A stretch of DNA of 23,405 nucleotides from the NCBI GenBank assembly GCA_002428445.1, contig DIWJ01000070.1:6730-30134 (forward strand), written 5' to 3'. Source of the stretch: Syntrophaceae bacterium UBA6109 (GTDB lineage: Bacteria; Desulfobacterota; Syntrophia; Syntrophales; UBA6109). Under the pieces are notes generated by a model that was not told the DNA's origin, made no database searches, and saw only the letters and a program-made list of their open reading frames with translations. Of this stretch, positions 1 through 23,398 are shown one piece after another (position 1 is the stretch's first letter; each line of letters starts with the position of its first letter). Position numbers and translations under genes: made by a program.

Positions 1-71
1 AGCTTGCTCCGGAGAGCTTCAATTAAGGGAAACAACGTACGAAACGGGCAGGAAAAAGGAGAACACGACGT

Positions 72-1508
72 ATGAAAAAGCAAAATACTCATGTGCTGAT
101 TGTCGGAGGCGGTCCGGGCGGACGCGTCTCTTACATGGTTCTGAAGAATCTCGGTGTCGAAAACGTCAGGATCGCGGCCAATGAAGAACCGACGGTCATC
201 TGCAGCCTTCCCTACGGGGTGGGGTGCCGGCTGATCCCCGAGGGGCCGGAAGCCGTGGTGGTGAACCTCGCCCAGTCCGACCGTCTGCCGAAGAGCATCG
301 TGGAGGACCTCATCCCGGGAAATGTGATCTCCCTGGACCCCGCAAAACGCCAGGCCGTTATTCGGAGCGGGGAGGAAGAAATCGTCATGGCCTTTGACAA
401 GGCCATCCTTGCGCCGGGTGCGGTTCCCTGGCTGCCCGCCGCCGAAGGCCTGCTGAAAGACGGCGAAGCGGAAACGGGTACCGGCATCTTCTATGGAAAC
501 GACTGGGTGGACAAGGGGCGGCTGGCGGATCACGTGCATGTCCTCAGGGGCGCGCCCGACGCCCGCCGTCTGGACGAACTCGCCGGGACGGGAAAGTCCG
601 CCGTGGTGGTGGGCTCCGGCGCCATCGGCCTGGAAGTGGCGGAGGCCCTTCATGATCGCGGGCTGACGATCACGATTCTCGAGGTCCTGGAACACCTGGT
701 GTCGGCCCTCGATGCCGACATGGCGGAGAAGGTCGAAGAGCGTCTGCGGCGGAAGGGCGTGGCCGTTTTCAAAGGGAAGGAAGCCGCTGTCCGAAAGGTT
801 CTGCCCGGCAAGGTGGAACTGGAGAACGGAACGATCATTCCCTGCGACGGCGTCGTTTTCGCCACCGGCGTCCGCCCCGACTTGCGTCTCGCCCGCCGGG
901 CGGGACTGAAAGTCGAAAAGGGAATCGTCGTGGATGCCTCGATGCGCACCTCCGCCGCCGACGTCTATGCTGTGGGCGACGCGGCCCAGATCTCCGACGG
1001 GGCCACCGGCCTTCCCCTCTTGCCCCTTGTCGGAACCCTGGCCATGCGGGAGGCGGTCGTAGCGGCATCCGCCGTCGCGGGCCGTCCCATGCCCCTTCCA
1101 CCCGTGACGGTGTGGGGGATAAGCGCCGTTTTCGGCCTCAACTGGGGCAGTGTCGGATGGACCGCAGAGGCGGCCGGGAGGGCGGGCATCCCGGCGGCAG
1201 CCCTGATTCAGCCGGTCCGCACCCGCGACTCATTCATGCCCGAGGGACGGGACGGGCTCTGGAAACTGATCGTGGCAACCGCCCCGCACGGGGAAATTCG
1301 ACCCGGTCAGATTCTCGGATTTCAGGTCGTCCAGGAGGGGGAGTCGCCCCTGAACCTCGCGGAACGTTTTATCGACATCATCGCCGGCAAGGAGACCGTG
1401 ATGGACCTCTTCGGACACTACTTTATCCACTCGCCGGCCCACAACTCCGTGAATGATCCCTACCTCGGGCTTCTCTTCCAGGCGCAGCGTCTTTTCCAGA
1501 AGACGTGA
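72..1508 (+). CDS. FAD/NAD(P)-dependent disulfide oxidoreductase, CoA-disulfide/polysulfide-reductase-like
   Basis: A 478-residue two-dinucleotide-domain flavoprotein of the pyridine nucleotide-disulfide oxidoreductase superfamily. Visible motifs are an N-terminal FAD-binding GGGPGG (residues 12-17), a second nucleotide fold GSGAIG (181-186), the ATG motif of the FAD domain (ATGVRPD, 264-270) and the second FAD contact VYAVGDA (298-304). A single Cys44 sits in CSLPYG, where NADH oxidases, NADH peroxidases and CoA-disulfide reductases carry their one redox-active cysteine, so the paired CxxxxC of glutathione/lipoamide reductases is absent. The C-terminal ~130 residues are the usual dimerisation domain; no rhodanese domain is fused. 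AAAAAGGAG lies upstream of the ATG. It precedes a YeeE/YedE transporter pair, which suggests reduction of a persulfide, polysulfide or selenium analogue. The exact substrate cannot be read from sequence; NADH oxidase or CoA-disulfide reductase activity is equally possible. Confidence 0.85.
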   Translation: MKKQNTHVLIVGGGPGGRVSYMVLKNLGVENVRIAANEEPTVICSLPYGVGCRLIPEGPEAVVVNLAQSDRLPKSIVEDLIPGNVISLDPAKRQAVIRSGEEEIVMAFDKAILAPGAVPWLPAAEGLLKDGEAETGTGIFYGNDWVDKGRLADHVHVLRGAPDARRLDELAGTGKSAVVVGSGAIGLEVAEALHDRGLTITILEVLEHLVSALDADMAEKVEERLRRKGVAVFKGKEAAVRKVLPGKVELENGTIIPCDGVVFATGVRPDLRLARRAGLKVEKGIVVDASMRTSAADVYAVGDAAQISDGATGLPLLPLVGTLAMREAVVAASAVAGRPMPLPPVTVWGISAVFGLNWGSVGWTAEAAGRAGIPAAALIQPVRTRDSFMPEGRDGLWKLIVATAPHGEIRPGQILGFQVVQEGESPLNLAERFIDIIAGKETVMDLFGHYFIHSPAHNSVNDPYLGLLFQAQRLFQKT

Positions 1509-1596
1509 CGGCGCGAAAGGGCCCTGGCGAAGCGGTGGAACCGGTGCGCTGAACGGCCGGTTATCGAAATTGGAGAGGATCTATCGAAAAACTCCA

Positions 1597-1625
1597 TTGA
1601 CATGAGATGCCATGTTCCTTAACAT
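1597..1625 (+). promoter_or_regulatory. Sigma-70-like promoter of the YeeE operon, with a dyad over the -10
   Basis: TTGACA (1597-1602), a 17-bp spacer and TAACAT (1620-1625) form a good sigma-70-type promoter in the 185-bp gap after the flavoprotein gene. A perfect dyad, CATGTT-CCTT-AACATG (1611-1626), overlaps the -10 and could be an operator. The predicted transcript starts about 60 bp before the YeeE start codon at 1694. Confidence 0.55.
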
Positions 1626-1693
1626 GAAGCACCATGGCGGGTGTTTCTTCGAACCGAACCGTTTCAAACCAACATGCGAGGAGGTAAAAAACC

Positions 1694-2221
1694 ATGGACG
1701 TCTTTCGTCAGAAAACCTGGTCTCCTTACATTGCCGGCGCCCTGGCGGGTCTCCTGCTGGTCCTGTCCGTCTTTCTCACGGGCAAATATTACGGCGCCTC
1801 GACCACCTTTGTCCGCGCGGCGGGCTTCATCGAACAGACCGTCGCGCCGGAGAAGGTGGCCGGCATGGAGTATTTCATCAAGGAGAAGGCAAAGATCGAC
1901 TGGCAGTTTCTCTTCGTCGTCGGCGTGCTCTTCGGCGCCCTGGCATCCGCCTGGCTTTCGAAGGAAATGCGCGCCGTTCCCGTGCCGCCGATGTGGGAAA
2001 GCCGTTTCGGGCCGTCCCGGACCCGGCGCTGGGTCGCGGCCTTCCTGGGCGGAATCGTCCTGATGTTCGGAGCGCGTCTTGCCGATGGGTGACCGAGCGG
2101 GCACGGTCTGAGCGGTCTGGCTCAGATAGCCGTCAGCGGTTATGTATCCTTGATCTGCTTCTTCCTGGCCGGCATCATCATGGCCAGAATCCTGTACGCG
2201 GGAGGGAACGGCCATGAATGA
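1694..2221 (+). CDS. YeeE/YedE-family transporter, first half, with in-frame TGA read as selenocysteine
   Basis: Read conventionally this gene stops after 132 codons at TGA 2090-2092. Reading through gives 175 residues, ending at a TGA that overlaps the next start codon (2214). The read-through junction is LADG-U-PSGHGLSG, which matches the YeeE/YedE (sulf_transp) signature in which a GCxSGHGxSG cysteine is essentially invariant, so residue 133 is selenocysteine in place of Cys. Forty-two further family-like codons follow, including a membrane segment (~142-167). Other hydrophobic segments are ~11-33, ~69-88 and ~112-128. In the YeeE structure known from Spirochaeta thermophila, the equivalent cysteine helps pass thiosulfate through the membrane. 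GAGGAGGT lies ideally before ATG 1694. A SECIS-like hairpin follows the TGA. The alternative is a nonsense mutation of a Cys codon; the hairpin and the intact downstream frame argue against it. Confidence 0.85.
2090..2133 (+). promoter_or_regulatory. Selenocysteine UGA codon plus bacterial SECIS-like hairpin
   Basis: The in-frame TGA (2090-2092) is followed 10 nt later by a stem-loop: ACGG (2103-2106) and TCTGAGC (2107-2113), hexaloop GGTCTG (2114-2119), GCTCAGA (2120-2126), three unpaired bases, then CCGT (2130-2133). The seven apical pairs are perfect. The loop begins 21 nt after the TGA. From memory, E. coli fdhF has the same GGTCTG at its SECIS tip, about 18 nt after its UGA. SelB binds such a loop to deliver Sec-tRNA. 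Confidence 0.8.
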
Positions 2222-2741
2222 ACTTCTGACCGGCGCCATCACGGGAATCCTCTTCGGATTTTTCATGCAGAAGGCCCAGGTGATCCGGTACGACCGGCAG
2301 CTGGCCGCCCTGCGTTTCCAGGATATGACGATCGTCAAGTTCATGCTCACGACCATCCTCGTGGCCATGGTGGGCATCTATCTCCTGCTCGACCTGGGGC
2401 TGATCAAACTCTCGGTGAAACCGCTGGTCCTGGGCGGCAACGTGCTGGGCGGCCTGATCTTCGGGATCGGCTGGGGCATCGTCGGATACTGTCCCGGCAC
2501 GGCCATGGGAGCCCTCGGAGAGGGGCGTTACGACAGCCTCTTCGGTCTCCTGGGAATGATCCTGGGCGCGGCGCTCTATGCAGAGATGTTCCCCCTGATG
2601 AAGGCCACGGTCCTGACCTGGGGGAATTTCGGAAAGATCACCCTCCCGGGCGTCCTGGGCATCAATCACTGGATTGTCATCGTCGTCCTGGGTGCCGCCT
2701 TTATCGGCCTCTTCCGCTGGTTCGAAAAGAAGGGGCTGTAA
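2214..2741 (+). CDS. YeeE/YedE-family transporter, second half
   Basis: A 175-residue integral membrane protein homologous to the second half of single-chain YeeE/YedE transporters. The diagnostic motif is GYCPGTAMGALGEG (residues 91-104), whose Cys93 corresponds to the conserved C-terminal-half cysteine of the family. Hydrophobic segments lie near 5-19, 41-60, 72-92, 107-123 and 152-168. Its ATG overlaps the last codons of the preceding gene (ATGAATGA), so the two are almost certainly translationally coupled and should assemble as a heteromeric transporter, with one half supplying Sec133 and the other Cys93. Split YeeE pairs of small proteins are common in bacteria. Substrate (thiosulfate, another reduced sulfur species, or a selenium species) is not decided by sequence. 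Confidence 0.88.
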   Translation: MNELLTGAITGILFGFFMQKAQVIRYDRQLAALRFQDMTIVKFMLTTILVAMVGIYLLLDLGLIKLSVKPLVLGGNVLGGLIFGIGWGIVGYCPGTAMGALGEGRYDSLFGLLGMILGAALYAEMFPLMKATVLTWGNFGKITLPGVLGINHWIVIVVLGAAFIGLFRWFEKKGL

Positions 2742-2979
2742 GGGCGCCGGACCCGGAGGGCGGCGCTATTCTTCCGGGACGGGCGCCGCTTTCGGGACCG
2801 GTGAGGCGCAGCCGGAATCGAAGTCTCTCCGGAGGGAACTCCGGGGAGATTTCCATTTTGAGGCGCGGACATCCGTCAATGTGCGACTTGACATCCAGCC
2901 CGGTCTTGCCGGTTTTTTCGGTGAAGAAGAAAAAATAGGTATTACGCACATCGCAGCGAAACATGGGAAAGAGACATCC

Positions 2980-4146
2980 GTGCTCCGCATCTGGCTCAAA
3001 TTCGCCGTTCTCGTATCGGGTGTGATCCTGCTGTCGCTCCTGTCCGTCTCCCTGTGGCGGGACAAGCAGGAGGAGCCCGCTGAGACGCCGCCGATCGTCA
3101 TCCGCGACGGGATGACGATCGGCGATTTCGGGCGCGAGAACGGGCTGCCCGGCGAGCTTCTGAAAAAGGCGTTCGGCCTGCGACCCGGAGACGACCTTGA
3201 AAAGAAGCTGGAGAGACTGGGCCTGTCCGGGGCGGAACTGACCGCCCGCGCCGGCAGGGCCCGGGCGCTGGCGGCGGAATACAAAGCGAAAAACTGGTTC
3301 AAGATCCCCCTCAAGTTCGCCCTCTGGATCCTGTTCCTCTCCGGAGTCTATGTCCTGATGCGGCGGAACAGGATCACACCCGGTCTGCGCAGAGGACTCT
3401 ATCTCATTTCCCTCAGCCTCTTCGGGATTGTCCTCGGGGCGGACCCCGGCCCCATGGGAACGATCAAGGACGCCATCGTGCTCTACGGCGAAAAGAAGGT
3501 TGTTTTTCCGCCCAGAATGATCGCCCTGGCGGGATTCCTGCTGCTGGCCGTTGCGGCCAACAAGTTCATCTGCTCCTGGGGTTGCCAGGTCGGGACGCTC
3601 CAGGACCTGATTTTCCGCCTGAACCGGAACGGCCGGGACACGAGCGGCATCCTGCGCCAGTACCGCGCGCCATTCGTCTGGACGAACGCCTTCCGGATCG
3701 CCTTCTTCATGGTTTTCACCTTTGCCGCCCTTGTCTGGGCCGCGGACCTGTTCGAGGCCATCGATCCCTTCAAGATCTACAAGCCGGCGGTCATCGGCAT
3801 CTGGGGCGGCGTCTTCATCGGCCTCCTGCTGATCGCGAGCCTTTTCATCTACCGTCCCTGGTGCCATCTGTTCTGCCCCTTCGGTCTGGCGGGCTGGCTC
3901 GCGGAGAAGATCAGCCTCTTCAAAATCCGGGTCAACTATGATACCTGCATCGCCTGCCGCGCCTGCGAAAAGGCCTGCCCTTCAACGGTCATGGGGGCGA
4001 TTCTGAAACGCGACCGGGTTATTCCGGACTGTTTTGCCTGCGGGAGCTGCATCGCCATCTGCCCGACGAAGTCGATCAGCCTGACGGCGGGGAAACGCGA
4101 CCTGCCGCCTGCGGGAAAATTCGCCGAACCCGCCGGCCGGTCCTGA
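2980..4146 (+). CDS. NapH/YccM-like membrane polyferredoxin (4Fe-4S)
   Basis: A 388-residue membrane iron-sulfur protein. From the chosen GTG it begins with a membrane anchor (~7-28), then a soluble stretch with an N-terminal 'MTIGDFGRENGLPGELL' module, then several membrane helices. Two cysteine pairs at helix ends, CSWGC (198-202) and RPWCHLFCP (Cys295, Cys299), are typical of NapH/NosR/CcoG-type quinol-linked proteins. Two [4Fe-4S] clusters follow: Cys323-326-329-333 and Cys351-354-357-361. The frame is open from 2674, inside the previous gene, but the first 102 codons are low-complexity and unlike the family. GTG 2980 has GGGAAAGAG just upstream and starts directly at the membrane anchor. 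It probably passes electrons between the quinone pool and a partner. Its position after the YeeE pair suggests a redox role in handling the imported sulfur or selenium compound. Confidence 0.8.
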   Translation: MLRIWLKFAVLVSGVILLSLLSVSLWRDKQEEPAETPPIVIRDGMTIGDFGRENGLPGELLKKAFGLRPGDDLEKKLERLGLSGAELTARAGRARALAAEYKAKNWFKIPLKFALWILFLSGVYVLMRRNRITPGLRRGLYLISLSLFGIVLGADPGPMGTIKDAIVLYGEKKVVFPPRMIALAGFLLLAVAANKFICSWGCQVGTLQDLIFRLNRNGRDTSGILRQYRAPFVWTNAFRIAFFMVFTFAALVWAADLFEAIDPFKIYKPAVIGIWGGVFIGLLLIASLFIYRPWCHLFCPFGLAGWLAEKISLFKIRVNYDTCIACRACEKACPSTVMGAILKRDRVIPDCFACGSCIAICPTKSISLTAGKRDLPPAGKFAEPAGRS

Positions 4147-4196
4147 AAAACGCGCCTTCTGGAAAAAGAAATGGAGGCTGCCGCCGCAGGCGGCGC

Positions 4197-4818
4197 GTCG
4201 CCCTTGCCGTGCAGGAAAGCCCGGCCGCGGCCGTTTCCCGGGAAGCGTTCCTGGAGGAACTGATCGTCAGGAGGGGGCTTTCCGGCAATTTCTGCCTTCA
4301 CAACGAGCGGTACGATTCCGTCGACGGCTTTCCCCGATGGGCCCGGGAGCCCTCGACAAACACCGAAAGGACCGGCGTCCTACGTCTACGGTCTCGAACA
4401 GTTCGAGCGGGGGGAAACCCATGATCCGCTCTGGAATGCGGCGCAGTCGGAAATGGTTCGCACCGGCAGGATGCACGGGTATCTGCGCATGTACTGGGCC
4501 AAGAAAATCCTCGAATGGACGAGGAGCCCCGAGGAGGCGATGGCGTTCGCCGTCTATCTGAACGACCGTTACGAACTGGACGGCAGGGACCCCAACGGGT
4601 ACGCGGGCATCGCCTGGCCCATCGGCGGCGTGCACGACCGGCCGGTTTTCGGCAGGGTGCGCTACATGAGCTTCAACGGCTGCAAGACGAAATTCGACGT
4701 GGAGAAATACATCTCCGCGCGGATAGGGACCGCGATCGCGCCGCCCGCTCTTATTCGCAGAAGTGCCGGTCCCCCATTGACCGGCCGCCGGCGGACTGGA
4801 ACGGCGTCTGGGTCGTGA
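4197..4818 (+). pseudogene. Class II DNA photolyase, 3' remnant with frameshifts
   Basis: Only the C-terminal ~175 residues of a class II CPD photolyase survive, in three frames. Frame 1 (about 4197-4349) encodes [17 protein letters not shown] and [12 protein letters not shown]. Frame 2 (4349-4381) encodes [11 protein letters not shown]. Frame 3 (from 4381) encodes [43 protein letters not shown] (as two adjoining blocks), [25 protein letters not shown] and [15 protein letters not shown]. Each shift fits loss of one base (near 4349 and 4381). The first ~270 residues, including most of the antenna and N-terminal domain, are missing; homology starts just after a GCCGCC/GGCGGC hairpin (4180-4194), 50 bp after the polyferredoxin gene. 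The frame beyond ~4720 no longer resembles the family. Sequencing error could explain the single-base shifts but not the missing N-terminus. Confidence 0.85.
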
Positions 4819-4860
4819 CGACGAAGTGAAACGCCGCCGCAATACTGCCGCGGTACATCG

Positions 4861-5496
4861 CTAACGCGGCTGCAGATAAGGGGCCAGCGCTTCGAAGCTC
4901 AGAAGAGCCTTTTCCAGTTCCTCGGGATTCGAGACGATTTCATCCCGCTCGAACCGAAGGCACCCGTCGCGGATATCGATATCGGAATTCTTCTCCAGAA
5001 TGCTCAGGATTGCGTTTCTCCGGGAGCCGTCCAGCCAGAGCAACGCGCTCGCCGGGTCGTTCCCCTTCACGACAAAGGCGGCGTCGAATCCGGGATCGTT
5101 CGTCTTGAGATCCTGGGCGCCGAAGAACTTGGTGATCTTGAGGAAGGTGTTTTCATGGTAGATGGACAGCCCGGCCGGAAGGTTCGGAATCTCCGCCGAC
5201 ATGATCGTATGAACGCTGCGGCTCCGTCCGGTCCCGCGAACCTCCGCCTGCAGGCGGAAGGGGAGGGCGTGAATCTTTCCGTGCACTTCCCCGGGATCCT
5301 GGAAGACGATGGCGGACCTCGACGAAAAGAGGCTCGGCGGGCCGGGGGGCACATGGTTGAAGCCGTGCCTTATGGCGAAAGACTTCCATGCTTCCTGCGC
5401 CCGCTTGCGTCTCCGGAAGGCGAGGATCATGGCAACGGCAACGGCGATCCCGATGACGTTCACGATGTAGGGTTCGAGATCGCTCCAGGAATCCAT
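4861..5496 (-). CDS. Membrane-anchored protein of unknown function
   Basis: Not recognised. From ATG 5496 it is 211 residues. The frame is open to 5574, but a GAGAGGAAGGA ribosome-binding site sits directly before ATG 5496. One N-terminal membrane segment (about 10-25) is followed by RRRKR, so the ~180-residue remainder should be cytoplasmic. That domain opens with AWKSFAIRHGF and later has DPGFDAAFVVKGNDP and a C-terminal LSFEALAPYL. Stand-alone proteins of this general plan occur in many delta-type bacteria without an assigned role. It stands alone: a photolyase remnant lies downstream, and repeats lie upstream. No catalytic motif is visible. Confidence 0.65.
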   Translation of the reverse strand: MDSWSDLEPYIVNVIGIAVAVAMILAFRRRKRAQEAWKSFAIRHGFNHVPPGPPSLFSSRSAIVFQDPGEVHGKIHALPFRLQAEVRGTGRSRSVHTIMSAEIPNLPAGLSIYHENTFLKITKFFGAQDLKTNDPGFDAAFVVKGNDPASALLWLDGSRRNAILSILEKNSDIDIRDGCLRFERDEIVSNPEELEKALLSFEALAPYLQPR

Positions 5497-6873: not shown

Positions 6874-7680
6874 ATGTCGAAGTGCAGGACCTTCGGGGTC
6901 GTCATCGGGATCACCGCCTTCATCTTCCTTCTCGCATCAGCGGCGGACGCCGCCGGGGAAAAGTTTCTCACAGTCAAAATGGGAACCGGGGAGGCCAAGG
7001 TGGTCTTCCTGAAGGGAACGGCGACCGCGACATCGTCCGGTCAGAAGGCGGTCCGGGCGCTCAAGGAGGGAGACTCTCTGAAACCGGGGGATCAGGTCGT
7101 CACGGGCGCCGACACTCTTTTGGAAATGATGTTACCCGATCGCAGCATGATGCGTTTCGGGGACAAGACGAACTTCAAGATTGTGCAGCTGTACATCGAC
7201 AGCGACAAGAAGGCCCGGGAAGTGAAAGTGCACATGAATGCCGGCAAGACCTGGAACAACATCCGCAAGGTCTTCTTCGGCGTGAAACCCAAGATCGAGG
7301 TGACGACGCTGACGTCGGTCTGCGGCGTGCGCGGGACGGTCTATCGCATGAACGTCGAGAACGACCAGTCGGTTCTGGTCCGCGTCTACACAGGCGAGGT
7401 GGGCGTCTGGAGCGGTGCGCCGATGGTCGAGGAAGGCGAAAAACCCGGTGTGCTGAAGGCTCCGAAGGCCGTTTCCGGTCCCAAACCGGTGGCCGGTCCG
7501 CGGAAGGTCACGATGGAGGAGTGGGTTTACATCGTGAAGTCCATGCAGCAGATCCGGGTCAGTTCGCAGGGCGTACCCGCAAAGCCCGAAGAATTCTCGG
7601 ACCAGGAGGACAAGGATCCCTGGGTTGACTGGAACAAGGCCCGGGATCAGGAGGCAGGAAAGGTTCCAGATCTTCAGTAA
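6874..7680 (+). CDS. Secreted FecR-domain protein
   Basis: A 268-residue exported protein. A Sec signal peptide spans residues 1-26 (hydrophobic core VVIGITAFIFLLA, cleavage likely after ADA). The FecR domain follows: LKEGDSLKPGDQVVTGADTLLEMMLPDRSMMRFGDKT (about 63-100), then the second conserved block with SVCGVRGTVYRM and VLVRVYTGEVGVW (about 146-180). The C-terminal third is charged and low in complexity. FecR domains of this free-standing type are periplasmic and are often encoded next to CHASE2 signalling proteins. It sits 58 bp upstream of a CHASE2 kinase, so it may present a signal to, or be sensed by, the kinase's periplasmic domain; that link is inferred from context. GGAAAGG precedes the ATG. 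Confidence 0.85.
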   Translation: MSKCRTFGVVIGITAFIFLLASAADAAGEKFLTVKMGTGEAKVVFLKGTATATSSGQKAVRALKEGDSLKPGDQVVTGADTLLEMMLPDRSMMRFGDKTNFKIVQLYIDSDKKAREVKVHMNAGKTWNNIRKVFFGVKPKIEVTTLTSVCGVRGTVYRMNVENDQSVLVRVYTGEVGVWSGAPMVEEGEKPGVLKAPKAVSGPKPVAGPRKVTMEEWVYIVKSMQQIRVSSQGVPAKPEEFSDQEDKDPWVDWNKARDQEAGKVPDLQ

Positions 7681-7738
7681 GATGCGCGCGAAGCCGGACA
7701 CTGCCGTCCGCTGACGTCACTTTGTCGAGGAGAGCTTC

Positions 7739-10225
7739 ATGGCCAAGTCCAAGAAAGCCGTCGTTTCGGGTCTGGTGATCGGACTGATTCTGATGATCTT
7801 CACCCTGGCCGCCGGCTTCTTCCAGTGGGGGCCGATCGAAACGCTGGAATACAAATTCTATGACCTGGGCCTGAGCCTGCGGGAACAGCCCGCCTCTTCG
7901 CCGGTCGTGATCGTGGCGATCGACGACGAAAGCATCAACGCCCTGGGACGCTGGCCGTGGCCCCGGGGGTACATCGCCCACATGATCGACGCCTTGAGCG
8001 GCCACAATGCCAAGGTCATCGGCGTCAACATCCTTTATTCCGAGAGCGATTTCAACCAGGGGCTCCTGGAGATCCGCGACATCGTCAAGAAGATGGAGGC
8101 CGACCCGACCCTCGCCAAGAATCAGCAGGCCTCGAACATCTACACCGTTCTGAAAGAGGCGGAGCAGCGTCTCGACAACGACAAGACGCTCTCGACCTCC
8201 ATCGCCAACGCCAAGCGCGTCGTGTTGCCCTTTTACTTTGTTCTGGGAAGCCCCGTGATGATGGACAACGCCGGTCTCCCGGAATACCTCCGGAAGAATT
8301 CGGTGAGCTTCCATAATCCGCTGCCTTTGACGACGGCCAGAGAGCTTCTCCCGCCGATCCCGGAATTTGCCTCCGCGGCGGCGGCGCTGGGTCATATCAA
8401 CCTCCGGGCCGACCGGGACGGCACGGTCCGCAGCGAAATGCTGCTGATCGACTACGGCAACCGGGTCTATGCCTCCCTTCCGCTTCAGCTGACCCTGAAA
8501 TACCTCGGCCTGAATCTTCAGGATATCGTCGTCGGCGAGGGCATCAGGTTTCCGCGGATCAACATCCCGACTTACGAAGATCATCGGATGCTCATCAGCT
8601 ACAACAGCAACTTCACCGCCTATTCCTTCGTGGACGTCATGAACAACAAGGTGCCCGGAGAGGTCTTCAAGAACAAAATCGTTCTTCTCGCCCACAGCGC
8701 GACGGGACTGGGGACGATGCAGGTCACCCCCATCGGAACGACGGTGCCGGCGGTGCTCATCATCGCCAACGTCATCAACAACATCCTCAACGGCGATCAC
8801 ATTCAACGGCCCGCCTGGGCGCTGCCGGCGGAGATGGGCGTCGTAGCCTTCTTCGGCCTCTTCCTGGCGATCGCGATCCCGCGGCTGAGGGCCGGCATCA
8901 GCGCGCTGCTGTCGCTGGTTCTTCTGATCGCGTGGCTGGTGACGGGCGCCTATTTCCTCCTCCTGCAGGGGATCTGGGTGAAGGTGTTCTATCCGACGCT
9001 GCTCCTGCTCGTCGGCTACATCGTGCTGGTATCGAAAGAATACCTGTTCACGGAACAGTCGAAGGAACGCATCGAGGCGGACAGCGTCGAGACGAACAAG
9101 ATGCTGGGGCTTTCCTTCCAGGGCCAGGGCATGCTGGATATGGCCTTTGAGAAGTTCCGCAAGTGCCCCATGGAGGATGACGCCATCAAGGAGCTCCTCT
9201 ACAACCTCGGCCTGGATTTCGAACGGAAGCGCATGTTCAACAAGGCCGTGGCTGTCTACGAGCATATCGCGACGGCCGGCGCGTTCAAGGACGCCGCGGA
9301 GCGCATTACAAGACTCAAGACCGTGGGCGAAACGATGATCTTCGGCGCCGGCGCGGCGCGCAAGGAGGGGACCGTCATCATGGAGGGGAGCGCCCAGACG
9401 AAACCGACGCTCGGCCGCTACGAAGTCGTCAAGGAACTCGGGCACGGGGCCATGGGGACCGTGTATCTGGGGAAAGACCCGAAGATCAACCGCGAAGTCG
9501 CCATCAAGACGCTGCGGTACGAGGAATTCGATCAGGAGCAACTGGCCGAGGTCAAGAAGCGTTTCTTCCGGGAAGCCGAGGCCGCCGGAAAGCTTGCCCA
9601 CCCCAACATCGTCACCATTTTCGACGTTGGCGAAGATTACGAGATCGCTTACATGGCCATGGAACTGCTGGACGGTTCGGACCTGGAGAAGCGCGGTTCC
9701 AAGGATTCCCTGCTGCCGCGCCGTGAAGTCGTCAGGATCGTCTCGGCGGTGGCGAGCGCGCTCGACTATGCCCATGCCAACGGCGTCGTTCACCGGGACA
9801 TCAAGCCCGCGAACATCATGATTCTCAGGAACGGCGAGGTGAAGGTCGCCGACTTCGGCATTGCCCGCGTCATGGCCAGTTCCAAGACACAGACGGGCGT
9901 GATCATGGGCACCCCCAGCTACATGTCGCCGGAGCAGATCGCCGGGCAGAAGGTGGACGGGCGGTCGGATCTGTTCTCCCTGGGCGTCGTCTTCTTCGAA
10001 TTGCTGACCGGCGACAAACCATTTGCCGGCGAAAGCATCGCAACCCTGATCTACAACATCACGACCACTGCACCGCCGCGTCTGAGGGAATTGGCGCCGG
10101 ACATTCCGGAGCCCTTCGATGCCGTCATGGCAAGGATGCTGGCCAAGGACAAGGAGCAGCGCTATCAGCAAGGAAAGGATATTGTTGCGGCTCTCAACGA
10201 ACTGCTGAAATCCCTGGAGGCCTGA
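7739..10225 (+). CDS. CHASE2-domain transmembrane Ser/Thr protein kinase
   Basis: An 828-residue receptor-like kinase. The order is: membrane helix (~9-28), extracytoplasmic CHASE2 sensor (~35-355, with VVIVAIDDESINALGRWPWPR near its start), three membrane helices (~366-382, 388-410, 417-434), a TPR-like helical pair (~455-520), a juxtamembrane linker, and a Hanks-type kinase domain (~559-825). Kinase features are complete: glycine loop LGHGAMGTVYLG, VAIK with Lys590, HRDIKPAN with catalytic Asp687, DFG with Asp705, and the activation segment ending GTPSYMSPEQ. The kinase should therefore be active, phosphorylating Ser/Thr in response to a periplasmic signal. The linker has threonine-rich motifs (GETMIFG with Thr532; GTVIMEG with Thr545) that could be phosphorylation or FHA-docking sites. 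GAGGAG precedes the ATG. A PP2C phosphatase starts one base after its stop codon. Confidence 0.95.
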   Translation: MAKSKKAVVSGLVIGLILMIFTLAAGFFQWGPIETLEYKFYDLGLSLREQPASSPVVIVAIDDESINALGRWPWPRGYIAHMIDALSGHNAKVIGVNILYSESDFNQGLLEIRDIVKKMEADPTLAKNQQASNIYTVLKEAEQRLDNDKTLSTSIANAKRVVLPFYFVLGSPVMMDNAGLPEYLRKNSVSFHNPLPLTTARELLPPIPEFASAAAALGHINLRADRDGTVRSEMLLIDYGNRVYASLPLQLTLKYLGLNLQDIVVGEGIRFPRINIPTYEDHRMLISYNSNFTAYSFVDVMNNKVPGEVFKNKIVLLAHSATGLGTMQVTPIGTTVPAVLIIANVINNILNGDHIQRPAWALPAEMGVVAFFGLFLAIAIPRLRAGISALLSLVLLIAWLVTGAYFLLLQGIWVKVFYPTLLLLVGYIVLVSKEYLFTEQSKERIEADSVETNKMLGLSFQGQGMLDMAFEKFRKCPMEDDAIKELLYNLGLDFERKRMFNKAVAVYEHIATAGAFKDAAERITRLKTVGETMIFGAGAARKEGTVIMEGSAQTKPTLGRYEVVKELGHGAMGTVYLGKDPKINREVAIKTLRYEEFDQEQLAEVKKRFFREAEAAGKLAHPNIVTIFDVGEDYEIAYMAMELLDGSDLEKRGSKDSLLPRREVVRIVSAVASALDYAHANGVVHRDIKPANIMILRNGEVKVADFGIARVMASSKTQTGVIMGTPSYMSPEQIAGQKVDGRSDLFSLGVVFFELLTGDKPFAGESIATLIYNITTTAPPRLRELAPDIPEPFDAVMARMLAKDKEQRYQQGKDIVAALNELLKSLEA

Positions 10226-10226
10226 G

Positions 10227-11033
10227 ATGGAGCTGCTCGTCGGTGCGAAGACGGACGTTGGCCGGACGCGGAAGAACAACGAGGACAACTTTCTCGTCAT
10301 GGAAAAGCCGCGGCTGCTCCTCGTCGCGGACGGAATGGGGGGACACGCCTCGGGGGAAATTGCGAGCCGCATGGCCGTCGACACGGTCCGGAACTTCTTT
10401 GACGGCGGAGGGAAAAAGAAGACCCTGCAGATCGGCGCGTACGACGAAGACTACTCGGAGGCGACCAACCGCCTCGGCTCGGCGATCCGGTTCGCGAATA
10501 TGGCGATTTTCGAAGCGGCGGCCGGCAATCCCGCCTGGCAGGGGATGGGGACGACCGTCGTGGCGGCGCTTGTCACAGACCGCAGGCTGAGCATCGCCCA
10601 CGTTGGAGACAGCCGCCTCTACCTGATCCGCGCCGGCGGCATCGAACAGCTGACCGACGATCATTCCGTCGTCGCCGAGCAGGTGAAGCGGGAACTGATC
10701 TCCAAGGATGAGGCTCAGAAGTCGGAGATGAAAAGCGTCCTGACCCGGGCGCTGGGCACGGAAGCCGAAGTGGACGTCGATCTGTGTGAAATGACGATGT
10801 CCGACGAGGACATCCTGCTCCTGTGTTCGGACGGGCTGTCCAATATGGTGACCGACGAAGACATGCTGTCGATTGCAAGTCTCAGCAAGGATCCCGACGC
10901 GGCCTGCACGGCCCTCGTCGATCTTGCCAACGGCAACGGGGGCAAGGACAACATCACGGTTGTAACGGCCTACCTCCTCAAGGAGGGCTGGCTCTCTTCC
11001 TTATTGAAATTTTTCGGGTGGGGCAGGAGGTGA
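10227..11033 (+). CDS. PP2C-family Ser/Thr protein phosphatase
   Basis: A 268-residue bacterial PPM/PP2C phosphatase. The metal-binding and family motifs are all present in order: RKNNEDN, VADGMGGHASGE, GMGTTVVAA, IAHVGDSRLYL, DHSVV, LLLCSDGLSNMV and GGKDNITVV. It would use two Mg or Mn ions to dephosphorylate phospho-Ser/Thr, most likely on the kinase encoded just upstream or on its targets. ATG 10227 follows the kinase stop by one base, so translation is coupled. A short tail (EGWLSSLLKFFGWGRR) after the catalytic domain is hydrophobic and basic and may bring the protein to the membrane. No signal peptide is present. Confidence 0.95.
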   Translation: MELLVGAKTDVGRTRKNNEDNFLVMEKPRLLLVADGMGGHASGEIASRMAVDTVRNFFDGGGKKKTLQIGAYDEDYSEATNRLGSAIRFANMAIFEAAAGNPAWQGMGTTVVAALVTDRRLSIAHVGDSRLYLIRAGGIEQLTDDHSVVAEQVKRELISKDEAQKSEMKSVLTRALGTEAEVDVDLCEMTMSDEDILLLCSDGLSNMVTDEDMLSIASLSKDPDAACTALVDLANGNGGKDNITVVTAYLLKEGWLSSLLKFFGWGRR

Positions 11034-11036
11034 CGC

Positions 11037-11744
11037 ATGGCTAAGATACTGTTGAAGTTCAAGGAGGCGGTTCTCAAAGAGATACCCCTCGACAAGGACG
11101 TCCTGACGATCGGCCGCAAGGAAGGCAACGATATTCCCATCGAAAACCCCGCCGTATCGGGTTCTCATGCAAAGATCGTCAAGACGGATCAGGGCTTCGC
11201 CGTCGAAGACCTCAACAGCCTCAACGGGACGTTCGTCAACGGCAAGAAGATCTCCAGGCATGACCTGAAGCCCGGCGATTCCGTCCTCGTGGGCAGCCAC
11301 GTCCTTGCCTTCATCGGCGACCAGGAAGAGGGGGAAGCCAAGCTGCAGCCCGCCCGGACCCGGTCCATGGACGAGACGATGGTGCTTTCTCCCCTGGAGC
11401 AGAAGAAGATCCTGGCCTCTGCAGCGCCGGCGGCGGACAAGAAGGAAATTCTTGGAGGCTTCCTCGTGATCGAGGGTTCGACCGAGAAGAAGGACTATCT
11501 TCTCAAGGAGCGGATCACAACGATCGGCAAGGACGACAGCGCCGCCATCAAGCTCAAGGGCTTCTTCGCACCGAAAGTCGCGGCTTTGGTCAACCGGCGC
11601 AAGGAGGGGTATTTCATCACACCCTCCGGCGGGAAGGAGATCAAGGTCAACACAGAAAAGGTCGAACAGCGCTGCGACCTCAAAGACGGCGACGTCGTTG
11701 AAGTCGGCGACCTGAAGATGCAGTTCTACATCAAGGAAGAGTAG
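11037..11744 (+). CDS. FHA-domain protein with a second, degenerate FHA-like domain
   Basis: A 235-residue cytoplasmic protein. The N-terminal FHA domain (about 1-95) keeps the phosphothreonine-binding residues: Gly26-Arg27, SGSH (41-44) and NGTFVNG (63-69). A linker (about 97-136) carries DETMVLSPL (Thr114), resembling phosphorylatable Thr motifs of small FHA regulators. The C-terminal ~95 residues show an FHA-like rhythm (TTIGKDDSAAIKL ... LKDGDVVEVGDLKMQF), but Arg is replaced by Lys and the S-x-x-H pair is missing, so it probably cannot bind phosphothreonine in the usual way. It follows the phosphatase by 3 bp and ends the operon, so it is a likely reader of the kinase's output. Confidence 0.9.
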   Translation: MAKILLKFKEAVLKEIPLDKDVLTIGRKEGNDIPIENPAVSGSHAKIVKTDQGFAVEDLNSLNGTFVNGKKISRHDLKPGDSVLVGSHVLAFIGDQEEGEAKLQPARTRSMDETMVLSPLEQKKILASAAPAADKKEILGGFLVIEGSTEKKDYLLKERITTIGKDDSAAIKLKGFFAPKVAALVNRRKEGYFITPSGGKEIKVNTEKVEQRCDLKDGDVVEVGDLKMQFYIKEE

Positions 11745-22210: not shown

Positions 22211-23398
22211 ATGGAACAAGTAGTTCGGAGTTTGCCACAGGCGTTTCGTATAATCAAGGAGATGCATTTATATGGTGACGAGGAGACGGATTATCGAAGT
22301 TTAGCGCGGGATTCATTGAGCAAGATCCTGGAAGACCGGATGCGGGATCGGATAGACAAGCATCTGGCAGGGATGGCGTATCGGGAAGAGGCGGATCGTC
22401 GGAACGGTTATTTCAGCCGTCACTTTTTGACGGAGTTAGGGGACTTGTTGCTGAAGGTTCCCCGGACAAGAACGACATCGGGTGTAGGAGTGATCCAGGC
22501 GTACAATCGCCGGGCGGTTCAGGTGAATCGGATGATTTTGTCCTGTTTTGTGTTGGGTTTATCGACAAGGAAGGTGAGTAGCGCTCTGCTGCCGGTTTTG
22601 GGAGAAGCGGTAAGCGCCGCGACAGTCAGCCGGGTATCACGGATCCTGGATGTGGCTGTTTCGGCCTTTCACCGGCGGCCGATCCGTCGGTCGTATCGGT
22701 TTCTTTTCCTGGACGGAGTGGTGTTGAAGCGGAAAACGGGGATGGGGTCCGTCAAGCGAGTGGTCCTGGTGGCCTTGGGCATGACCTCAGAGGGGAAGAA
22801 GGAGGTCATCGACTTCACAATTGCCCACGGCGAGTCGCAGGCCGCATGGGATGCCTTCCTGTCCGATCTGTACAAGAGGGGGCTGAGGGCGGAAGGAATG
22901 GAGTTGATCGTGACGGATGGCGGCAAGGGGTTGCTGGCTGCCTTGCCCTTCGTCTATCCAGGCATCCCCATTCAACGCTGTTGGGCTCACAAAACCCGAA
23001 ACGTCCTGAACCATATCCGAAAAGCGGATCAGAAAGTTGCCAAGAAGGACCTGGCTGCCGTCAGCAATGCCGAAGGAATCAGACAGGCACGAACCGCTTT
23101 GAAACACTTCGCCTCCAAATGGGGCAATCTCTACCCCAAAGCCCTTGCTTCTCTCAGAGAATGCGAAGAAGAACTCTTGGCCTTCTTCCAGATTCAAGAC
23201 AGAAATCTCTGGAAGAAGATCCGAACCACCAATCTCATTGAACGGAGATTCCGCGAGCTCCGAAGACGAACCAGACCCATGGGCATCTTCTCCGATAAAA
23301 CCAGCATGGACAGAATCCTCTATGCCATCTTCGCCCATGAAAACTTTAAAAACAAAACCGGAGGCCCCTTCCTCTTAAACCTGACACAAACATCTTGA
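22211..23398 (+). CDS. IS256-family (mutator-type) transposase
   Basis: A 395-residue DDE transposase, near the usual family length and uninterrupted. The three catalytic positions can be placed in FLFLDGVVLKRK (first Asp), LIVTDGGKGLLAAL (second Asp) and TTNLIERRFRELRRRTRPMG (Glu in the IER block). IQRCWAHKTRNVLNHI carries the conserved CWxHK pattern. The N-terminal ~90 residues hold the DNA-binding region. ATG 22211 follows AGGAG. The stop codon (23396-23398) lies in the right inverted repeat. No frame disruption suggests a recent, possibly still mobile, copy. Confidence 0.95.
   Translation: MEQVVRSLPQAFRIIKEMHLYGDEETDYRSLARDSLSKILEDRMRDRIDKHLAGMAYREEADRRNGYFSRHFLTELGDLLLKVPRTRTTSGVGVIQAYNRRAVQVNRMILSCFVLGLSTRKVSSALLPVLGEAVSAATVSRVSRILDVAVSAFHRRPIRRSYRFLFLDGVVLKRKTGMGSVKRVVLVALGMTSEGKKEVIDFTIAHGESQAAWDAFLSDLYKRGLRAEGMELIVTDGGKGLLAALPFVYPGIPIQRCWAHKTRNVLNHIRKADQKVAKKDLAAVSNAEGIRQARTALKHFASKWGNLYPKALASLRECEEELLAFFQIQDRNLWKKIRTTNLIERRFRELRRRTRPMGIFSDKTSMDRILYAIFAHENFKNKTGGPFLLNLTQTS

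Follow-up and report, generated by a model that had tools for sequence, protein, structure and literature searches.

The gene at 1694-2221 of the window (the whole 23,405-nucleotide stretch of contig DIWJ01000070.1 analysed here) very probably encodes a selenocysteine (Sec)-containing, PmpA-type subunit of a two-subunit transporter of the YeeE/YedE family (PF04143). The region is confirmed as one open reading frame that is read through an in-frame TGA. Comparison with related loci indicates that the UGA at codon 133 is almost certainly decoded as Sec, at a key substrate-handling position, which places the residue on the substrate path of a transporter and not in a redox enzyme.

Selenoproteins of this kind are already known, and the gene described here is an additional member. 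PF04143 is given as a selenoprotein family, with WP_012471001.1 as the example, in a table row of each of two reviews, from 2022 (PMC9312934) and 2026 (PMC13188914); the latter also contains one mention of the family among predicted Sec-containing transporters. The remark in the first-pass annotation of this DNA that YeeE/YedE did not seem to be among the commonly listed selenoprotein families is therefore corrected by these tables. Judged by its table entry, the listed protein shares Pfam family and motif with the window protein (GUxSG in the 2026 table, GUPSG in the window). Whereas the review tables offer a single accession, the data presented here comprise 79 loci with the TGA, their spread through the phylum, a covarying selenocysteine insertion sequence (SECIS), a partner subunit, a position at the first relay cysteine of the TsuA path, and repeated exchange of Sec and Cys. 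PMC13188914 cites PMC5029168 and PMC2398784 for the family, but neither names it in its main text, and PMC12013277 does not name it either. A literature search found no paper devoted to YeeE/YedE as a selenoprotein and, in the open literature searched, supplements aside, no account of a PmpA-type subunit with Sec in the position of Cys293.

An in-frame TGA replaces a conserved cysteine

Translation of 1694-2221 gives 175 codons interrupted by a single in-frame TGA. With this codon as Sec (U) the product has 175 residues and reads ...GARLADG-U-PSGHGLSG..., the TGA preceding both PSGHG and the final hydrophobic segment. Of the two alternative frames past the codon, one holds several stops and the other a single stop near its end, and PSGHG occurs in neither. 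The first-pass annotation had read the TGA as a replacement of the motif cysteine within a frame that stays open up to a start/stop overlap with the partner gene, and had expected gene callers to shorten the protein to 132 residues. These readings all stand: PSGHGLSG follows in the same frame, which runs on to the terminal stop; the ATG of the partner lies inside the end of the upstream gene; and the database protein for this frame (P0017) has 132 residues, ending before the TGA.

Table 1. Positions of the features of the predicted selenoprotein gene and its partner in the window
Feature	Position	Strand	Remarks
Shine-Dalgarno-like element GAGGAGGT	1678..1685	+	8 nt upstream of the ATG; from sequence reading
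PmpA-type (C-terminal half) YeeE/YedE subunit	1694..2221	+	ATG 1694, stop TGA 2219-2221; 175 aa with TGA 133 as predicted Sec
Predicted Sec codon TGA, residue 133	2090..2092	+	aligned with TsuA Cys293, position hand-counted along the alignment
Predicted bacterial SECIS hairpin	2106..2127	+	stem 2106-2113 with 2120-2127 (8 bp), loop GGTCTG 2114-2119; folding and covariation
PmpB-type (N-terminal half) YeeE/YedE partner, 175 aa	2214..2741	+	Cys93 (TGT 2490-2492) aligned with TsuA Cys91

In a protein homologue search with 3922 matches, 70 of the best 120, which were listed, stop exactly one residue before the TGA site, one of them being the window's own entry. The remaining 50 continue past the site and all have Cys there. 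The Sec reading corrects a gene that is shortened at the same residue in 69 other database proteins among the matches listed.

Related loci give the same picture. A scan of genome contigs retrieved 16 loci, 54-86% identical to the window gene, and all 16 carry TGA at codon 133. Sampling was extended to the order of a related genome, in which 64 of 155 genomes matched at 1e-15, and to a sample of the phylum, in which 75 of 395 matched at 1e-40. The locus set drew on 60 of the 69 matching stretches from the order (the nine omitted were remote or second copies) and 70 additional ones from the phylum sample; with 13 duplicates dropped it comprises 134 distinct rows, including the window. The comparison that the first-pass annotation had suggested, of TGA with the motif cysteine in related genomes, came out in favour of its proposal: codon 133 is TGA in 79 loci, TGC in 33 and TGT in 22 (55 Cys), and TAA, TAG, Trp or any other codon is found in none of the 134. 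The motif search that located the site limited the choice of residue in one part of the set and favoured Cys or a stop in another, so rare other residues may be under-counted; TAA and TAG were detectable. Where loci with more than one stop were inspected, the extra TGA is the normal stop or lies beyond it, except in L051 (genome G143), in which a further in-frame TGA precedes the Sec codon by 30 codons, at the place of Ser103 of the window protein. This second TGA may reflect a sequencing error or decay.

The sequence beyond the TGA bears the mark of translation. Simple Nei-Gojobori counts pooled over pairs of 20 close loci gave pN/pS ratios of 0.21 for codons 5-132, 0.15 for codons 134-169 and 0.16 for codons 146-169, which lie beyond the hairpin. 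The codons after the TGA are thus under purifying selection, which is what translation past the TGA predicts.

A covarying, SECIS-like hairpin follows the TGA

The first-pass annotation had pointed to a hairpin after the TGA, and such a hairpin, with an 8-bp stem and a GGUCUG loop, is borne out by comparison across species. The hairpin (22 nt, -12.4 kcal/mol) starts 13 nt after the TGA and its loop lies 21 nt from it. A similar loop occurs in the SECIS of E. coli formate dehydrogenase. With a loop of 6 nt, a stem of 8 bp and the above spacing and energy, the hairpin fits the bacterial SECIS model set out in PMC13188914 (loop of 3-9 nt with G in the first two positions, stem of 4-16 bp, spacing of 16-37 nt, at most -7.5 kcal/mol). 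Folding energy by itself is unremarkable, the 46-nt stretch having a z score of -1.64 with 11 of 200 shuffles equally good, and was rejected as proof of a SECIS. An Rfam search of the window gave nothing above cut-off, and no SECIS family was among the four weak matches in 1500-2900.

It is the cross-species comparison, and not energy alone, that makes the hairpin more than a chance structure. In the first set, with 43 TGA loci (40 distinct rows), the stem columns are paired in 91.6% of cells. Cells altered on both sides of the stem number 25, compared with 7.2 in shuffles, and the covariation score is 0.233 against 0.125; 0 of 500 shuffles reach either value. The register of the stem is specific, as sliding the partner strand by 1-3 columns reduces pairing to 19-43% (43% or 37% for a single column). 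Two of the five covariation measures are unremarkable: 41 of 500 shuffles reach the observed value for double-change pairs, and 496 of 500 that for further pair types. The clearest covarying pair joins a Leu and a Gln codon: 34 of 43 rows have CTG with CAG and 8 have TTG with CAA, the two changes being silent; one row has neither combination. The inner loop differs in some rows (GGTTCGCT).

A loose SECIS definition fits 78 of the 79 TGA loci, yet 42 of the 55 Cys loci satisfy it as well, and it was rejected as a discriminator; only position-specific tests therefore separate Sec from Cys loci. In the first set a contiguous hairpin with its loop 16-37 nt after the codon and an energy of at most -7.5 kcal/mol is present in 35 of 43 TGA loci, compared with 3 of 21 Cys loci. 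At least four of five stem pairs at the fixed place are found in 69/79 TGA loci and 14/55 Cys loci. Six TGA loci (L071, L094, L095, L121, L124 and L131) have a poor stem at the usual place (2/5 pairs), and L095 fails even the loose model; the SECIS of these loci, if any, must be of a different form.

Most relatives possess the selenocysteine machinery

In the first set of 16 genomes tRNA-Sec scored over cut-off in 15 and SelB in 14, compared with 5/14 and 2/14 control genomes. Across the order the corresponding figures were 125 and 141 of 155 genomes (controls, 2/14 each). Among the 39 genomes of the order that have the Sec form, tRNA-Sec was detected in 36, SelB in 38 and at least one of the two in all 39. 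SelA was found in 15 and SelD in 16 of the 18 related genomes tried; all 16 SelD matches themselves contain one in-frame TGA. The machinery does not separate carriers of the Sec form from carriers of the Cys form, the 18 closest Cys-form genomes (remoter Cys matches omitted) having SelB in 18/18 and tRNA-Sec in 16/18. SelB was below cut-off in G012, and both SelB and tRNA-Sec were below cut-off in G008, which is labelled Planctomycetota and may represent a misplaced contig. The TrpS encoded in the window is at most 79% identical to the TrpS of the 138 matching genomes among the 155 of the order, which places the window near this group, the Syntrophales, yet close to none of the genomes compared. 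No tRNA genes were found in the window.

Alternative readings of codon 133

An ordinary Cys gene that had acquired a nonsense codon, or had been misread in sequencing, would likewise yield the 132-residue database protein. The first-pass annotation had considered a chance nonsense mutation unlikely, and this judgement is strengthened by the recurrence of TGA at this codon in 79 of the 134 loci, TAA and TAG being seen in none, by purifying selection beyond the codon and by the conserved hairpin; the chance that the TGA is an accident of this kind is close to nil. That UGA 133 is a genuine stop and the 132-residue product the working protein is scarcely more probable. Such a product would retain most of the length of the protein, but PSGHG and the final hydrophobic segment come after the UGA, pN/pS is low over codons 134-169, and every Cys relative among the 120 listed matches continues past the site.

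That a suppressor or recoded tRNA inserts Cys or Trp at UGA 133, with no Sec involved, is marginally less improbable than either, and still very unlikely. Homologues do have Cys at this position, and the machinery data derive from relatives and not from the window's own genome. A covarying SECIS with a GGU loop, and the presence of SelB and tRNA-Sec in relatives, argue against such decoding; TGA also serves as the terminal stop of 1694-2221 and of several relatives, and a Trp codon occupies the site in none of the 134 loci. The proposal of the first-pass annotation that Sec takes the place of the family cysteine is, by contrast, supported by TGA as the sole stop codon at the site, the covarying SECIS, the selection beyond it and the machinery of relatives.

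Two half-length subunits correspond to the halves of TsuA

Both proteins of the pair belong to PF04143, scoring 85.2 bits (Sec subunit) and 62.3 bits (partner) against a cut-off of 27. On the 310-position profile the Sec subunit covers positions 172-309 and the partner 15-147. In 131 of the 133 other loci the partner has a match immediately downstream, and Cys occupies the PmpB site in 124 of the 128 loci in which a motif search detected the motif; the search gave no motif in 6 of 134. Residues 65-174 of the Sec subunit align with residues 235-334 of the thiosulfate transporter TsuA (6leo). Counted by hand along the printed alignments, Sec133 corresponds to TsuA Cys293, and Cys93 and Ile24 of the partner to Cys91 and Cys22, respectively. 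This correspondence agrees with the published accounts of both systems: according to PMC11582611, PmpA represents the C-half and PmpB the N-half, with Cys at the Cys293 and Cys91 places, and PMC11073785 orders the cysteines along the thiosulfate path as C293, C91 and C22, the last being at the YeeD side.

The window pair, likened by published description, conforms to the PmpA/PmpB type, with adjacent C-half and N-half genes and the expected residues at the Cys293 and Cys91 places. The PmpA and PmpB proteins of Serratia and Hyphomicrobium, as described in PMC11582611, are likewise encoded by adjacent genes matching the two halves of TsuA, but PmpA has Cys where the window subunit has the predicted Sec, and the proteins have ~130 residues compared with 175 for each window subunit. 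TsuA (YeeE) of Spirochaeta thermophila (6leo/8k1r) has halves homologous to the window pair, and the first and second path residues align. It is, however, a single chain with three cysteines and a YeeD partner, whereas the window has two chains with Sec, one Cys and Ile at the third place. No YeeD-like CPxP frame was found in window positions 1-5000. The TsuA equivalog model NF052577 (cut-off 400 bits) gave only 55.7 and 51.9 bits with these half-length chains, in which the third position is Ile. An AlphaFold2 model of the single subunit had a mean pLDDT of 56, and the partner is probably needed.

We infer that the pair functions in transport. In the proposed mechanism SelB and tRNA-Sec, aided by the hairpin 13 nt downstream, would decode UGA 133 as Sec, and the PmpA-type subunit and its PmpB-type partner would together rebuild the equivalent of one TsuA molecule. 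Sec133, in place of Cys293, would be the first path residue and presumably the outermost, the third being at the cytoplasmic YeeD side; Cys93 of the partner would stand in for Cys91, while the place of Cys22 is taken by isoleucine. Most likely, thiosulfate, polysulfide or a similar sulfane-sulfur anion is bound or passed on by the selenolate at the entry site. As the start of the partner overlaps the stop of 1694-2221, both subunits would probably become scarcer if the UGA were not decoded, and the transporter would thereby depend on selenium. A more speculative extension, to which we attach a low probability, is a covalent relay from selenium to sulfur: thiosulfate or polysulfide would donate a sulfane sulfur to the outer selenolate, which would carry it as a selenopersulfide and pass it to Cys93. 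Anaerobes of the phylum would then adjust import through exchange of Sec and Cys at a single gate residue, synthesis of the subunit itself being dependent on selenium.

It is also conceivable, if rather unlikely, that the transporter carries selenium and not sulfur species, like the YedE selenium transporter. The family contains a selenium-linked YedE that, according to PMC5322559, is split into two genes in archaea, and the window pair, a distant homologue, shows weak matches to the models of the YedE selenium-metabolism membrane protein, NF033796 (32.8 bits; partner 26.7) and TIGR04112 (26.8 bits, partner only). These scores are far under the cut-offs of 350 and 200 bits, which is weak evidence against selenium transport as both models were built for full-length proteins. 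The genes flanking the pair, an oxidoreductase upstream (72-1508) and a NapH-like ferredoxin-type gene on the other side, are not selenium genes by family searches. For the upstream oxidoreductase one distant match (31%, L071) was found, with at least 1.9 kb before the codon covered in 36 of 133 loci; the ferredoxin-type gene gave one weak 80-residue match, in L029, where it lies on the opposite side of the pair, and 41 of 133 loci cover at least 2.1 kb after the codon. Neither gene is counted as part of the transporter system and neither is conserved, so the context does not fix the substrate; transport of a sulfur species remains the preferred reading.

Sec and Cys have been exchanged repeatedly

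How losses and gains of selenoproteins balance in bacteria is, by its title, the subject of PMC1794560. For the present family, a quickly built tree with 132 loci (two short ones being omitted) and 49 full-length Cys proteins, 181 rows in all and with truncated Sec database proteins left out, requires at least 30 changes between Sec and Cys. The minimum is 25, 19 or 10 when branches under 80, 90 or 95 support, respectively, are collapsed. For the local clade (60 rows) a carefully built tree gives 9 changes, or 3 if only branches of at least 95 are kept. The Cys loci L028 and L029 sit within a Sec clade yet keep the hairpin, the GGUCUG loop of L029 being unchanged, which suggests a change from Sec to Cys that left the SECIS behind; the direction is deduced from these features and not given by the tree. 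Natural relatives of the two forms, such as L020 (Sec) and L029 (Cys), which are 83% identical at the DNA level, provide a means to test what selenium adds. One genome (G384) has both a Sec copy (L080) and a Cys copy (L111) of the PmpA-type subunit.

Other features of the window

Positions 4230-4830 of the window look like a decayed remnant of a class II DNA photolyase; a Pfam search of 4453-4815 within it gave no match. Genes for FecR-domain, CHASE2-Ser/Thr kinase, PP2C phosphatase and FHA proteins occur in a run at 6874-11744, likely a signalling operon, and 22211-23398 is a full-length match to a Mutator-family transposase (PF00872).
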